The notes below the pieces were generated by a model. The model was given only the letters and a program-made list of their open reading frames with translations, made no database searches and was not told the origin of the DNA. The position numbers and the translations under genes are program-made. Below are positions 36,966 to 39,767 of a DNA stretch of 40,170 nt, one piece after another. Numbering within the stretch: the first letter of the stretch is position 1; each line of letters starts with the position of its first letter. The DNA comes from Lentimicrobium sp. (lineage in GTDB: Bacteria; Bacteroidota; Bacteroidia; Bacteroidales; Lentimicrobiaceae), in the NCBI GenBank assembly GCA_019429275.1, contig JAHYJC010000040.1, forward strand, positions 1-40,170, written 5' to 3'.

Positions 36966-37052
36966 GGTGAGGTGGGTGAGTGGCTGAAACCAACAGTTTG
37001 CTAAACTGTCGTACTGGAAACGGTACCGGGGGTTCGAATCCCCCCTTCACCG
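36966..37052 (+). tRNA. tRNA-Ser (GCT)
   Basis: An 87-nt cloverleaf. The acceptor GGTGAGG pairs with CTTCACC (one G-T pair). The anticodon stem is ACAGT / ACTGT around TTGCTAA, giving anticodon GCT. A long variable arm (GTACTGG...CGGTAC) marks the serine type, and the T arm GGGGGTTCGAATCCCCC is canonical. CCA is not encoded. Confidence 0.97.
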
Positions 37053-37090
37053 CAGGGAGGATAAAAATCCTCTTTAGTTATAAAAAGATT

Positions 37091-37163
37091 CGGGGTGTAG
37101 TACAGTTGGTAGTATGCTTGGTTTGGGACCAAGAGGTCGTCGGTTCGAGTCCGGCCACCCCGA
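37091..37163 (+). tRNA. tRNA-Pro (TGG)
   Basis: The acceptor CGGGGTG pairs perfectly with CACCCCG. The anticodon stem CTTGG / CCAAG encloses TTTGGGA, anticodon TGG. The T arm is CGGTTCGAGTCCGG. The gene is 38 bp after tRNA-Ser and under the same promoter. Its 3' half is repeated downstream, around the GIY-YIG gene. Confidence 0.97.
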
Positions 37164-37166
37164 CAG

Positions 37167-37192
37167 AAAGAGAGCCAGCAATGGTTCTCTTT
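37167..37192 (+). terminator. Terminator of the tRNA operon
   Basis: AAAGAGAGCC pairs with GGTTCTCTTT (one G-T wobble) across a six-base loop, followed by more T residues. It begins 4 bases after tRNA-Pro. An identical hairpin lies at 37642-37667 in the second repeat copy. Confidence 0.85.
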
Positions 37193-37210
37193 TTTTATTT
37201 ACTCTTTCTA

Positions 37211-37268
37211 CTGGGTATGAATGGTTTGGTCCTGCCAAGGCTGGGGTAGGTTTGGGTACCGGCCACAC
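37211..37268 (+). other. Degenerate tRNA-Pro 3' fragment, copy a
   Basis: The stretch runs GTATGAATGGTTTGG, then GGTTTGGGTACCGGCCACACC. It lines up with the anticodon arm to 3' end of the upstream tRNA-Pro (GTATGCTTGGTTTGG, then GGTTCGAGTCCGGCCACCCC), with some change in between. It lacks D arm and acceptor 5' strand, so it cannot be a tRNA. It lies between the tRNA terminator and the GIY-YIG gene. Confidence 0.65.
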
Positions 37269-37324
37269 CTAAAAAATTCCAATTGCGAAAGCAGATAGTT
37301 TTTTTATTCCATGAGCTTTTTGTT

Positions 37325-37576
37325 ATGGCACACTTCGTTTATATCATAAAGAGTCTAAAGGATCAGAAGTTCTACATTGGTGAAACTACTGATCTGAACA
37401 GAAGATTATTTGAGCATAACCAAGGTTGGGTCAAATCTACCAGGTACAGAGTGCCATTTGTACTTGTCCATTCTGAAGAAGTTGAATCAAGAGAAATTGC
37501 CCTTAAAAGGGAAAAGCAGATTAAAAGTTTTAAAGGTGGACAGGCGTTTAAAAAACTACTTAACCTCGCGGATTAA
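37325..37576 (+). CDS. GIY-YIG family nuclease (small, UPF0213-like)
   Basis: ATG 37325 gives an 83-residue protein that is a bare GIY-YIG domain: VYIIKS (the GIY strand), KFYIGETTDLNRRLFEHN (the YIG strand and catalytic Arg), later a Glu-Ser-Arg-Glu helix and KREKQIKSFKGG. These single-domain nucleases are common in Bacteroidota, often several per genome and beside tRNA genes; their role is unknown. The upstream open frame from a TTG has no similarity and is ignored. The gene lies between two tRNA-Pro-derived fragments within a tandem duplication, and the second unit has only the first codons of it. Confidence 0.9.
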   Translation: MAHFVYIIKSLKDQKFYIGETTDLNRRLFEHNQGWVKSTRYRVPFVLVHSEEVESREIALKREKQIKSFKGGQAFKKLLNLAD

Positions 37577-37579
37577 TTC

Positions 37580-37639
37580 CGGTATGACTGGTTTGGCCCC
37601 GCCAACGGCGGGAGTCGGTTCGAGTCCGGCCACCCCGAC
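37580..37639 (+). other. tRNA-Pro 3' fragment, copy b (with intact T arm and 3' acceptor strand)
   Basis: It starts 4 bases after the GIY-YIG stop with GGTATGACTGGTTTGG, has an altered middle with a CCCGCC / GGCGGG pair, and ends with 24 bases identical to the tRNA-Pro T arm and 3' acceptor strand (37614-37638). It has no 5' half. Confidence 0.75.
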
Positions 37640-37822
37640 AGAAAGAGAGCCAGCAATGGTTCTCTTTTTTTATTTACTCTTTCTACTGGGTATGAATGGT
37701 TTGGTCCCGCCAAGGCTGGGGTAGGTTTGGGTACCGGCCACACCTAAAAAATTCCAATTGCGAAAGCAGATAGTTTTTTTATTCCATGAGCTTTTTGTTA
37801 TGGCGCACTTCGTGTGTATCAT
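37614..37822 (+). repeat. About 200-bp direct repeat, copy 2
   Basis: This is the second copy of 37139-37347. It holds the tRNA-Pro 3' end, a terminator hairpin (37642-37667), a third tRNA-like fragment (about 37686-37743) and the first codons of a GIY-YIG gene. Near-identity implies a recent duplication or ongoing gene conversion. Confidence 0.92.
37642..37667 (+). terminator. Duplicate of the tRNA-operon terminator
   Basis: The sequence is identical to the hairpin at 37167-37192. Here it follows the tRNA-Pro fragment and would end transcription of the GIY-YIG gene. Confidence 0.75.
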
Positions 37823-37862
37823 TAGCTCTGTTATAAACAATTGTAAAAAGCAAAACCCTTAA
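37800..37862 (+). pseudogene. GIY-YIG gene remnant (5' end only)
   Basis: ATG 37800 begins MAHFVCII, matching MAHFVYII of the intact gene. After eight codons the sequence is unrelated and ends at a stop 12 codons later. It marks the place where a second GIY-YIG gene was deleted or where the duplication ended. Confidence 0.75.
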
Positions 37863-37902: not shown

Positions 37903-38865
37903 CTACTTATCGTACAACTCAATTATTTTAAAGAGTGCAGAGGAATATTGATAGATGTCATCAAGTGATTGAATCTCAGTCTTGACTTCCTTCTTTTGCT
38001 CATCGTAAAGCCCAATATATTTTTTAGTGCCATCCAGATAGAATTTGCAGATTGGTTTTCTAATGGTATCATCAAGCAATACTGAAAAGTAAGATTGGAA
38101 ATCTCTGTTAAAGATTCTTGCTACAGGTATCTTCTCACGAAGAATTGATTTGACAATCATAGATGCTTCAATCTCTTCATCTGTTGTAACAACCTTACTT
38201 ACTGGTTCAGAAGTTCCGTCAGTTGTATTAACATCCTTTTCCGCTTCATTCTCCTTATTAAGAGCAGATTTTAGTCTGTCGGTAATTAAATCGCTGATTA
38301 CTTGCTGAAAAGACTTCTTTGTAAGATTTGTAAATTGCTCCAAAACCTTTGCTGTTATGACACTTGGATAAACCTGTCTTGAAAAATGTTTAACAAGCTC
38401 TGGAGTGGGATTATTAAGCTCTTGAAGAAACAACGACTTCAATTCCATTGTGTACTTTAGCTCAGCAGCAGTATTTACAATGCTGTCAATGTCAAAGTAA
38501 GATTTGTGGAATTTCTTTAACTCCTCTACTTGAGTGTCCTTTAACTCAGTGATATTAAACTCCAAGAAGGGTTTTTCATCCATCTTGTTAGGAGCAACTA
38601 AGTCTGTGTAAAAGCGATAAATTATTCCATTAGTAAGCAGTCCAAACCTTGCTTTAGTAACGTGAAAGTATCTTAACAGTTGACCATCGCGTATACTCAA
38701 ATTTTGATTCCAGTGTTTACATTCAATTAAAATTGTCGGTTTGCCTTCTTTGAAAATCGCATAATCAATTTTCTCACCTTTCTTCAGTCCACTGTCTGAA
38801 ATAAATTCCGGAACTACTTCAAAGGGATTGAATACATCGTAACCTAATGCCTGTAAAAATGGCAT
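37903..38865 (-). CDS. Restriction-type nuclease (HsdR N-terminal-like), 5' end interrupted
   Basis: The 320-residue frame carries a PD-(D/E)xK nuclease of the HsdR_N kind: D34 (KIDYAIF), E48-C-K50 (LIECKHW), and then RYFHVTKARFGLLTNGIIYRFY. The rest is a helical domain and a C-terminal segment with no helicase motor, so it is not a full type I R subunit. The same frame continues upstream through a TAA at 38944-38946 to ATG 38970, encoding the usual leader (ERVAKLKDQIQTEEATKNAF). The ancestral start is therefore 38970 and a CAA-to-TAA change is likely. Re-initiation at 38865 would leave the nuclease core intact. The ancestral ATG is 2 bp after the ion-channel stop. Confidence 0.8.
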   Translation of the reverse strand: MPFLQALGYDVFNPFEVVPEFISDSGLKKGEKIDYAIFKEGKPTILIECKHWNQNLSIRDGQLLRYFHVTKARFGLLTNGIIYRFYTDLVAPNKMDEKPFLEFNITELKDTQVEELKKFHKSYFDIDSIVNTAAELKYTMELKSLFLQELNNPTPELVKHFSRQVYPSVITAKVLEQFTNLTKKSFQQVISDLITDRLKSALNKENEAEKDVNTTDGTSEPVSKVVTTDEEIEASMIVKSILREKIPVARIFNRDFQSYFSVLLDDTIRKPICKFYLDGTKKYIGLYDEQKKEVKTEIQSLDDIYQYSSALFKIIELYDK

Positions 38866-38972: not shown

Positions 38973-39767
38973 TTAATTATTTTGATTGTCACTTAACTTA
39001 TTTATACTATTGTTGAGAGCCTCTATTTTCTTGCTTAGTCGTGATACCTCATTCTGCAAATCATCATTATTATCACTAACCATTGCATCAACAAATATTG
39101 AGTTTACCAAAGAAAGGCCAATAATTCCGCCACCAAGCAGTAAAATTACAAAATACAACTTAGAAACAAAGGCAATAAATGGAGAAGTTCGGGATGCAAT
39201 CAAATCAGGAATCTCATACCACCCTTCAATTGAAAAGATTCTAAAGGTTGAATACAAAGCATTTAGTGGATTATTAAAGTATTCTGGTGCAATATTCTTA
39301 TATAATGTGCAGGTTATAAGAGAAACGATGAAAACTAATAGGAAAAACCCTGCAATTACAATATATGATGCTTTTAACGCACGTTGAATGGACGAAATCA
39401 TATCTGATGCGTTGGGAAAGAAACGAATAAGTCTGAAGAACTTAAACACCCTTAATACACGCAGCGTAAGTAAAACATTCAATTGGATGATATTTCCTGA
39501 AGAAAAGATTGCTATGAGTGAAGGTACTGAAATTAATATCAGAATAAAGTCAAAACGATTCCAACCATTCGCTATGTATTTAGAAAATCCATATTCATTA
39601 ATTTTAATCATCATCTCAATAATGAACAGAATGGTAAAAATGGATTCGAGATTATCTAGAACTAGAATTTGTACTTCAAACTCTTGAATAAAAATCAAAA
39701 GAGCATTTGCAATTATCAGTGATAGAATACAGCAATCGTTAAGAAAGCAATTTTTTATCCTTTTCAT
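38973..39767 (-). CDS. Single-domain voltage-gated ion channel
   Basis: The 264-residue protein has six membrane helices. S4 carries five positive residues at every third position (R103, R106, K109, R112, R115). The pore loop holds the filter SIEGW (179-183), comparable to LESW in bacterial sodium channels. After S6 (about 205-228) comes a C-terminal coiled coil (about 233-262) that should join four subunits. It is an Ion_trans family tetrameric cation channel; Na+ or Ca2+ selectivity cannot be decided from sequence. It is transcribed with the nuclease gene downstream (2 bp from its ancestral start). A -7 box TATTTTTG lies 35 bases upstream. Confidence 0.9.
   Translation of the reverse strand: MKRIKNCFLNDCCILSLIIANALLIFIQEFEVQILVLDNLESIFTILFIIEMMIKINEYGFSKYIANGWNRFDFILILISVPSLIAIFSSGNIIQLNVLLTLRVLRVFKFFRLIRFFPNASDMISSIQRALKASYIVIAGFFLLVFIVSLITCTLYKNIAPEYFNNPLNALYSTFRIFSIEGWYEIPDLIASRTSPFIAFVSKLYFVILLLGGGIIGLSLVNSIFVDAMVSDNNDDLQNEVSRLSKKIEALNNSINKLSDNQNN

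Follow-up and report, generated by a model that had tools for sequence, protein, structure and literature searches.

Small GIY-YIG nuclease genes beside tRNA genes as candidate tRNA-restoring homing-type cassettes

We report that small GIY-YIG nuclease genes lying beside tRNA genes are best read as parts of a self-contained, tRNA-restoring homing-type cassette, a reading to which we assign a probability of about 0.6. The unit probably consists of a free-standing GIY-YIG gene encoding about 80 amino acids, a stretch of the host tRNA gene and usually a palindrome within the broken tRNA copy, and measures roughly 300–480 bp. Comparison of sequences between loci shows such units as insertions at or in a tRNA gene, which is completed by an element-borne part: the 5′ part of the tRNA in one arrangement (type II), whereas in the other (type I) the 3′ part is duplicated. 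By the same comparison, the displaced or duplicated tRNA part persists as a decaying remnant beyond the nuclease gene, and the units multiply in tandem. Cleavage by the nuclease, homing of the cassette and the part played by the palindromes are inferred.

The tRNA-Pro module of the window and other loci of its genome

The window is a 40,170-nt stretch of Lentimicrobium sp. DNA that forms contig 76 of the 108 into which a 4.19-Mb genome is assembled, and the features of its tRNA-Pro module are given in Table 1. Rfam at gathering score reports tRNA-Ser and tRNA-Pro as the only tRNAs in the window. A first-pass annotation, made from the sequence alone, had described near-identical repeats starting in the tRNA T arm, and the direct repeat indeed spans 209 nt at 98% identity with a spacing of 475, beginning at tRNA-Pro base 49 in the T arm; a repeat of this length and identity is far beyond chance. 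The tRNA-Pro 3′ fragment that it had placed behind the nuclease gene is present and is longer than described, covering tRNA bases 22–74 with the anticodon arm replaced, and its two ‘tRNA-like fragments’ are also present and can now be identified as older, more decayed copies of this remnant. What it had called a GIY-YIG remnant does retain the gene start, but only about the first 23 bases are homologous, after which the frame differs and stops after 20 codons. That palindromes mark the broken tRNA copies was absent from it. The window holds a type I unit at tRNA-Pro and a partial second unit. Chance and assembly artefact are ruled out as explanations of the module, the same anatomy being present in 160 loci of many assemblies.

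Table 1. Features of the tRNA-Pro module and its upstream neighbour (window positions)
Feature	Position	Strand	Evidence
tRNA-Ser(GCT), upstream neighbour, outside the cassette	36966..37053	+	ARAGORN, Rfam
tRNA-Pro(TGG), intact, host gene of the cassette	37091..37164	+	ARAGORN, Rfam
209-nt direct repeat, copy 1, spanning tRNA T arm through start of GIY gene	37139..37347	+	
Terminator hairpin 1	37165..37194	+	fold −16.9 kcal/mol, z −5.1
tRNA-Pro remnant, old, decayed, palindrome worn	37214..37272	+	alignment to 37581–37639
GIY-YIG nuclease gene, 83 aa, intact	37325..37576	+	PF01541, 55 bits; structure model
tRNA-Pro remnant, tRNA bases 22–74, anticodon arm replaced	37581..37639	+	alignment
Palindrome CCCGCCAACGGCGGG replacing anticodon arm	37598..37612	+	alignment, fold
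209-nt direct repeat, copy 2	37614..37822	+	
Terminator hairpin 2	37640..37669	+	alignment, fold
Old decayed tRNA-Pro remnant, copy 2	37689..37747	+	alignment
Truncated GIY-YIG gene start	37800..37862	+	homology stops near 37822

Further 3′, the window encodes an HSDR_N-domain protein (37903–38865, − strand) and an Ion_trans channel-like protein (38973–39767, − strand). Pieces of group II introns lie at both contig ends (1–37 and 40046–40135, both − strand; Rfam RF02001 and RF00029) and are the likely cause of the contig breaks.

The PF01541 domain of the 83-residue protein spans residues 3–68, and Y6, Y17, G19, R27, H31, N32, E63 and K67 are invariant across 20 sequences; these include the active-site residues of the GIY-YIG domain. 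The predicted structure is a confident GIY-YIG fold (pLDDT 92.4, pTM 0.79), and by both sequence and fold comparison the closest solved structures are UPF0213 and then SLX1, with I-TevI weaker. No NCBIfam model scored above its cut-off for this protein, and its matches to homing endonucleases were weak only; so were its PADLOC matches, and a defence system was set aside. A marker of tRNA-linked proteins based on the residue after the conserved His was likewise dropped, the protein tree being used instead. The GIY protein is, judging from its substitutions, under purifying selection, dN/dS being 0.07–0.12 in those pairs, 6/21, for which dS is unsaturated; some of these have dS >2. Within the genus, the GIY genes at tRNA-Pro appear old, with dS about 2, which may reflect long vertical retention. 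Besides the catalytic domain the protein has no separate DNA-binding part, an addition that is typical, though not strictly defining, of GIY-YIG homing enzymes. With cutting a prediction and no such DNA-binding part, the cassette is a candidate, not a proven, member of the homing class.

The window protein has seven matching genes in its own genome. A tRNA gene is present at six of these loci (Asn, Leu, Arg, Pro, and one Asp common to two), and the seventh (L002) holds tRNA-Asn fragments only. As a control we looked for partial tRNA copies at 30 of the 41 tRNA loci of this genome, 26 of them GIY-less rows of which two are the same tRNA-Lys: partial copies (E ≤ 0.01) lay near 4/4 GIY-linked tRNAs, tRNA-Asn just barely, against 1/25 distinct GIY-less tRNAs. 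This single case is tRNA-Thr(CGT) on contig 23 (L232, 821–2457), on whose 3′ side 135-bp units are repeated in tandem, in 11.9 copies (TRF, the tRNA’s own 3′ part counted). Every unit of this array combines a tRNA-Thr remnant, a palindrome and a terminator, and the 12-kb stretch inspected contained no recognisable GIY gene.

Unit anatomy and palindromes

Two orders recur. In type I an intact tRNA is followed, usually after a terminator, by the GIY gene and a remnant of the tRNA 3′ part; in type II the tRNA 5′ part is followed by a palindrome, some more tRNA bases, the GIY gene and the intact tRNA, and the gap from the end of the GIY domain to the tRNA start has a median of 21 nt. The type II 5′ copy stops at bases 20–24 in 49/63 cases, one row of the 63 (L078) being based on a mis-called tRNA, and at base 26 in four more. 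The type II junction lies in the D-loop at base 21/22, often as GGATA/GAG or GGATA/GAA. The start of the type I remnant on the tRNA is diffuse, falling at bases 17–24 in 15/69. The tRNA 3′ end, put forward in the first-pass annotation as the attachment sequence, is not a conserved attachment block under either pattern.

The GIY gene is an open frame outside protein genes, in neither an intron nor an intein; no intron family covered the units at gathering score in six sources, including L413, L353, L107, L020 and the window locus. Apart from a single GIY gene the units contain no long frame; no site-specific recombinase was found in them and no Y1 transposase gene was seen. In one genome of the genus (G010; L043, 2358–2927) an ORF that by eye resembles a Y1/RAYT-type transposase adjoins the tRNA-Pro remnants on their 3′ side.

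A perfect stem of at least 6 bp directly follows the type II junction in 53/63 cases compared with 15.7% of shuffles, and such a stem is present in 57/70 type I remnant blocks compared with 22.5% of shuffles and with 22/70 corresponding parts of the intact tRNAs. Palindrome sequences vary between tRNA families, and in type II the exact 20-mer CCTGCCTGCCGGCAGGCAGG was found in 22/72. In the window genome this 20-mer has 14 sites (≤2 mismatches), four of the five best lying in the tRNA-Arg locus, and the palindrome TCTCGTCA..TGACGAGA has two sites, one within a remnant; such concentration speaks against a genome repeat that hits remnants at random. The other TCTCGTCA..TGACGAGA copy lies, by eye, in a putative group II intron maturase gene (contig 65, L242, about 1500–1520). 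Elsewhere CCTGCCTGCCGGCAGGCAGG is dispersed: among the matches listed, 17/20 stretches from three genomes fell outside tRNA/GIY loci, the hosts including some Sphingobacterium, Terrimonas and Ferruginibacter genomes; twice the palindrome lay within longer frames. At L048–L050 (G001, G005, G014) a tRNA-Pro remnant carries a CCCCGCC-type hairpin derived from the tRNA-Pro variant of the species concerned, and a GIY gene is absent.

These palindromes allow a different, unlikely reading, in which the putative SLX1-like nuclease would spare the intact tRNA and cut a cruciform formed by the palindrome of the remnant. Once cut, the donor would recombine with intact tRNAs, and palindrome plus tRNA piece would be the end of the element. 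It would draw on the kinship, after UPF0213, with the structure-specific SLX1 nucleases, on the palindromes at both types of unit and on the GIY-less palindrome–tRNA-Thr array, and it would explain why intact tRNAs survive. It has to contend with the same palindrome at 16, 14 and 12 other sites in three genomes (among the matches listed), which would also be cut, and with how unlike the palindromes of different tRNA families are.

Linkage to tRNA genes and site occupancy

Three collections of small GIY-YIG loci were made. A search of 60 relatives with the window protein alone gave 33/64 loci linked to a tRNA; a second collection came from 296 genomes of the phylum with profile A1, and a third from 84,980 species with profile A2. 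Matches to the GIY-YIG profile at E ≤ 1e-8 occurred in 190/296 sampled genomes among the matches listed, and single genomes reached at least 18, which is the number of candidates scored per genome. Among the best 80 of 541 matches in the third collection a tRNA lay ≤700 bp away in 76 and a partial copy of that tRNA was present in 67, linkage rates in this and the phylum set being upper-side estimates since A1 and A2 were built mainly of tRNA-linked members. The collections were pooled into 226 non-redundant loci, with eight duplicates removed (L106, L108, L115, L118, L119, L122, L131 and L286) and overlapping loci replaced by larger refetched stretches.

In this pooled set a tRNA gene lies within 500 bp at 179/226 loci, on the same strand in 179/179. 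The first-pass annotation had suspected a mini-element tied to the tRNA and carrying a GIY-YIG nuclease, and had proposed to look for tRNA fragments around relatives; a partial copy of the linked tRNA is indeed nearby at 160/226 loci, across a GIY gene from it in 146. Two to five GIY matches, some partial, occur at 42/204 loci. Small GIY-YIG genes are common in Bacteroidota, and most of those examined can now be tied to tRNA genes. In Sphingobacterium a tRNA gene accompanies 17/20 further GIY loci. Linked loci beyond Bacteroidota, as named in records from bins that can be mixed, belong to Uhrbacteria, Daviesbacteria, Yanofskybacteria, Paceibacterota, Scalindua, Planctomycetes and Chlorobiota; those of Yanofskybacteria and Paceibacterota had no partial tRNA copy. 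A search for carriers of the cassette returned 9 plasmid and 20 phage records, all below 60% identity and one uncultured, none of them named as being from Bacteroidota.

A protein tree of 224 members contains one clade of 22, picked after linkage had been seen, that is not tRNA-linked (0/18 with enough flank). Outside this clade 155/169 members with enough flank are linked and 142/169 have a partial copy. The tree tracks the amino acid of the tRNA, needing 33 changes where none of 200 shuffles gave fewer than 89 (n = 175; 15 amino acids); nuclease lineages, as this comparison shows, remain with one tRNA, and vertical descent at fixed loci contributes to the agreement.

Occupancy differs between related genomes, as looking for empty sites, also proposed in the first-pass annotation, bears out at tRNA-Pro, tRNA-Val and tRNA-Arg(CCT). 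In Sphingobacterium lumbrici (G361) tRNA-Arg(CCT) is interrupted after base 21 by two units spaced about 310 bp. The upstream flank is 86–88% identical over about 880 bp to that of L432 and L433; it joins a 5′ remnant with one substitution in G361 and an intact tRNA in L432 and L433. DNA has therefore entered the gene behind base 21, and in G361 the functional tRNA now starts with element-borne bases. Displaced and inserted tRNA parts are near identical, the one substitution being in the displaced copy. All 29 other Sphingobacterium tRNA-Arg(CCT) loci fetched, from 79 genomes with a match, lack a GIY gene.

At tRNA-Val in the window’s genus a GIY gene is present in 2/16 loci shown. The downstream flank is conserved and starts at 856–858 in the occupied G001 compared with 157–160 in G004 and G012, the occupied locus being longer by 698–699 bp, with a 348-bp unit in two copies. 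Multiplication in tandem, as the first reading had proposed, is borne out. In the sisters G005 and G014 (L354, L355) tRNA-Val is followed by an ORF that by eye resembles the start of a tyrosine integrase. At tRNA-Pro, four of 16 genomes of the genus have a GIY gene and remnant, three a remnant only and nine neither in the 460 bp shown, one of the nine (G018) having a short partial match about 2 kb off. At tRNA-Asp a GIY gene is present in 6/11 loci shown; G005, sister of the occupied G014, retains what by eye appear to be a few bases of the GIY gene start and seems to have lost the cassette. The tRNA-Pro(TGG) of the window’s clade (G000, G006, G010, G012, G013) has a D arm and T arm strongly unlike those found elsewhere in the genus. 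In G378 several contigs carry equal copies; these are contig ends and give no proof of intragenomic movement.

It is doubtful that the locus instead serves a host RNA function, the GIY protein acting on tRNA or tRNA-like transcripts (processing, decoy or toxin–antitoxin-like) and the hairpin remnants being regulatory RNAs. Purifying selection, the shared strand, the fidelity of nuclease lineages to one tRNA and the position of type II genes within the tRNA transcription unit (≤40 nt from GIY domain to tRNA in 71/85) would fit it, but occurrence is sporadic (1/30 Sphingobacterium tRNA-Arg(CCT) loci; an A2-type gene in 15/80 Sphingobacterium genomes), the remnants decay and, to our knowledge, the GIY-YIG enzymes characterised so far are DNases. 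Ordinary tandem duplication of tRNA regions via unequal exchange, with the GIY gene as passenger, is largely refuted and very improbable: it would account for near-identical repeats (98% in the window), multi-unit arrays, the GIY-less array and a locus (L003) with promoter and tRNA 5′ part duplicated, but the gene between copies nearly always belongs to the tRNA-linked family and not to its unlinked sister clade, partial copies are rare at GIY-less tRNAs, the type II junction is fixed, and at the occupied site the tRNA contains additional DNA, including a gene, that empty sites lack.

Proposed mechanism and comparison with known systems

In the homing-type cassette that we favour, the nuclease would cut its own tRNA gene where the allele is unoccupied (for type II, close to D-loop base 21/22), and the break would be repaired from an occupied copy with both flanking tRNA pieces serving as homology arms. 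A functional tRNA would result only from repairs that bring in the whole cassette. The remnant is probably made unfit by its palindrome both as a target and as a recombination partner, and tandem copies could come from repeated cutting or unequal exchange. The rebuilt tRNA is identical to empty alleles at tRNA-Asp, tRNA-Val and tRNA-Arg(CCT), and because of this equality self-protection is the hardest problem for the homing reading. It might be achieved by recognition spanning tRNA and flank, by very low expression, or by the palindrome, not the tRNA, being the target. Recoding of the tRNA as a general form of self-protection was rejected, since the empty G013 is also recoded and tRNA-Asp is the same in several occupied and empty genomes.

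With most of the genes examined tied to tRNAs and a junction named for type II (D-loop, typically GGATA/GAG), function is directly testable. If the reading is true, a selfish gene can inhabit tRNA genes yet keep them whole, the orphan fragments that lie next to tRNAs are explained, as perhaps are some palindromes, and a family of nucleases of about 80 amino acids possibly holds many tRNA-directed specificities. More tentatively, the family might represent perhaps the smallest autonomous bacterial mobile elements, of about 0.3 kb and widespread in Bacteroidota and, by record names, in Chlorobiota, Planctomycetota and candidate-phyla bacteria. An SLX1-like GIY-YIG nuclease of about 80 amino acids, a palindrome and a tRNA piece would then suffice, with the tRNA acting simultaneously as target, as homology arm and as repaired gene, the palindromes as working ends, and the GIY-less palindrome–tRNA arrays as non-autonomous offspring.

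No description of this tRNA-linked GIY-YIG family was found among the open-licence, non-preprint papers of PMC. Islands with tyrosine integrases likewise sit in tRNA genes and restore them by bases brought with the element; the cassette differs in having no recombinase, a type II junction in the D-loop and a unit of about 0.3 kb. From group I and group II introns in tRNA genes it is distinguished by having no ribozyme match at gathering score. UPF0213 and SLX1 share its fold and are its nearest sequence relatives with solved structures, but as far as known they lie outside such cassettes, as do the 22 members of the unlinked sister clade.

REP palindromes, which are moved by RAYT Y1 transposases (PMC6006769), resemble the cassette palindromes in being short and present in many copies; no Y1 gene was seen in the cassette unit, and in type II its palindromes sit at fixed tRNA positions. 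The 20-mer is dispersed in some cassette hosts.

SegB of phages T4 and T6 is a GIY-YIG homing endonuclease whose free-standing gene lies in a cluster of tRNAs (PMC13096335, PMC2988022); it cuts within tRNA genes and drives tandem amplification of tRNA and its own gene (PMC13096335). The portions of these papers used here thus present a GIY-YIG gene beside tRNAs and a tandem amplification of tRNA and nuclease gene, as in the cassette, but they concern a phage gene between two whole tRNAs and describe there no displaced tRNA half and no palindrome, whereas the cassette resides in bacterial genomes, encodes about 80 amino acids, is associated with many tRNAs and rebuilds the tRNA itself.

In fungal mitochondria, mobile ORFs with carboxy-terminal gene duplication occur in Allomyces atp6 and in Glomus atp6, atp9, cox2 and nad3; they replace gene ends, the native end stays downstream, and the atp9 case is GIY-YIG (PMC3630166). 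According to the part of this source drawn on, the likeness lies in an endonuclease ORF in an essential gene that carries its own gene end and displaces the native part. The differences are that these are mitochondrial protein genes, mostly with LAGLIDADG enzymes and with no palindrome mark in that part, and that the inserted end differs from the native end whereas the tRNA copies of the cassette are near identical. By analogy, the cassette would work like a gene-end-replacing homing element.
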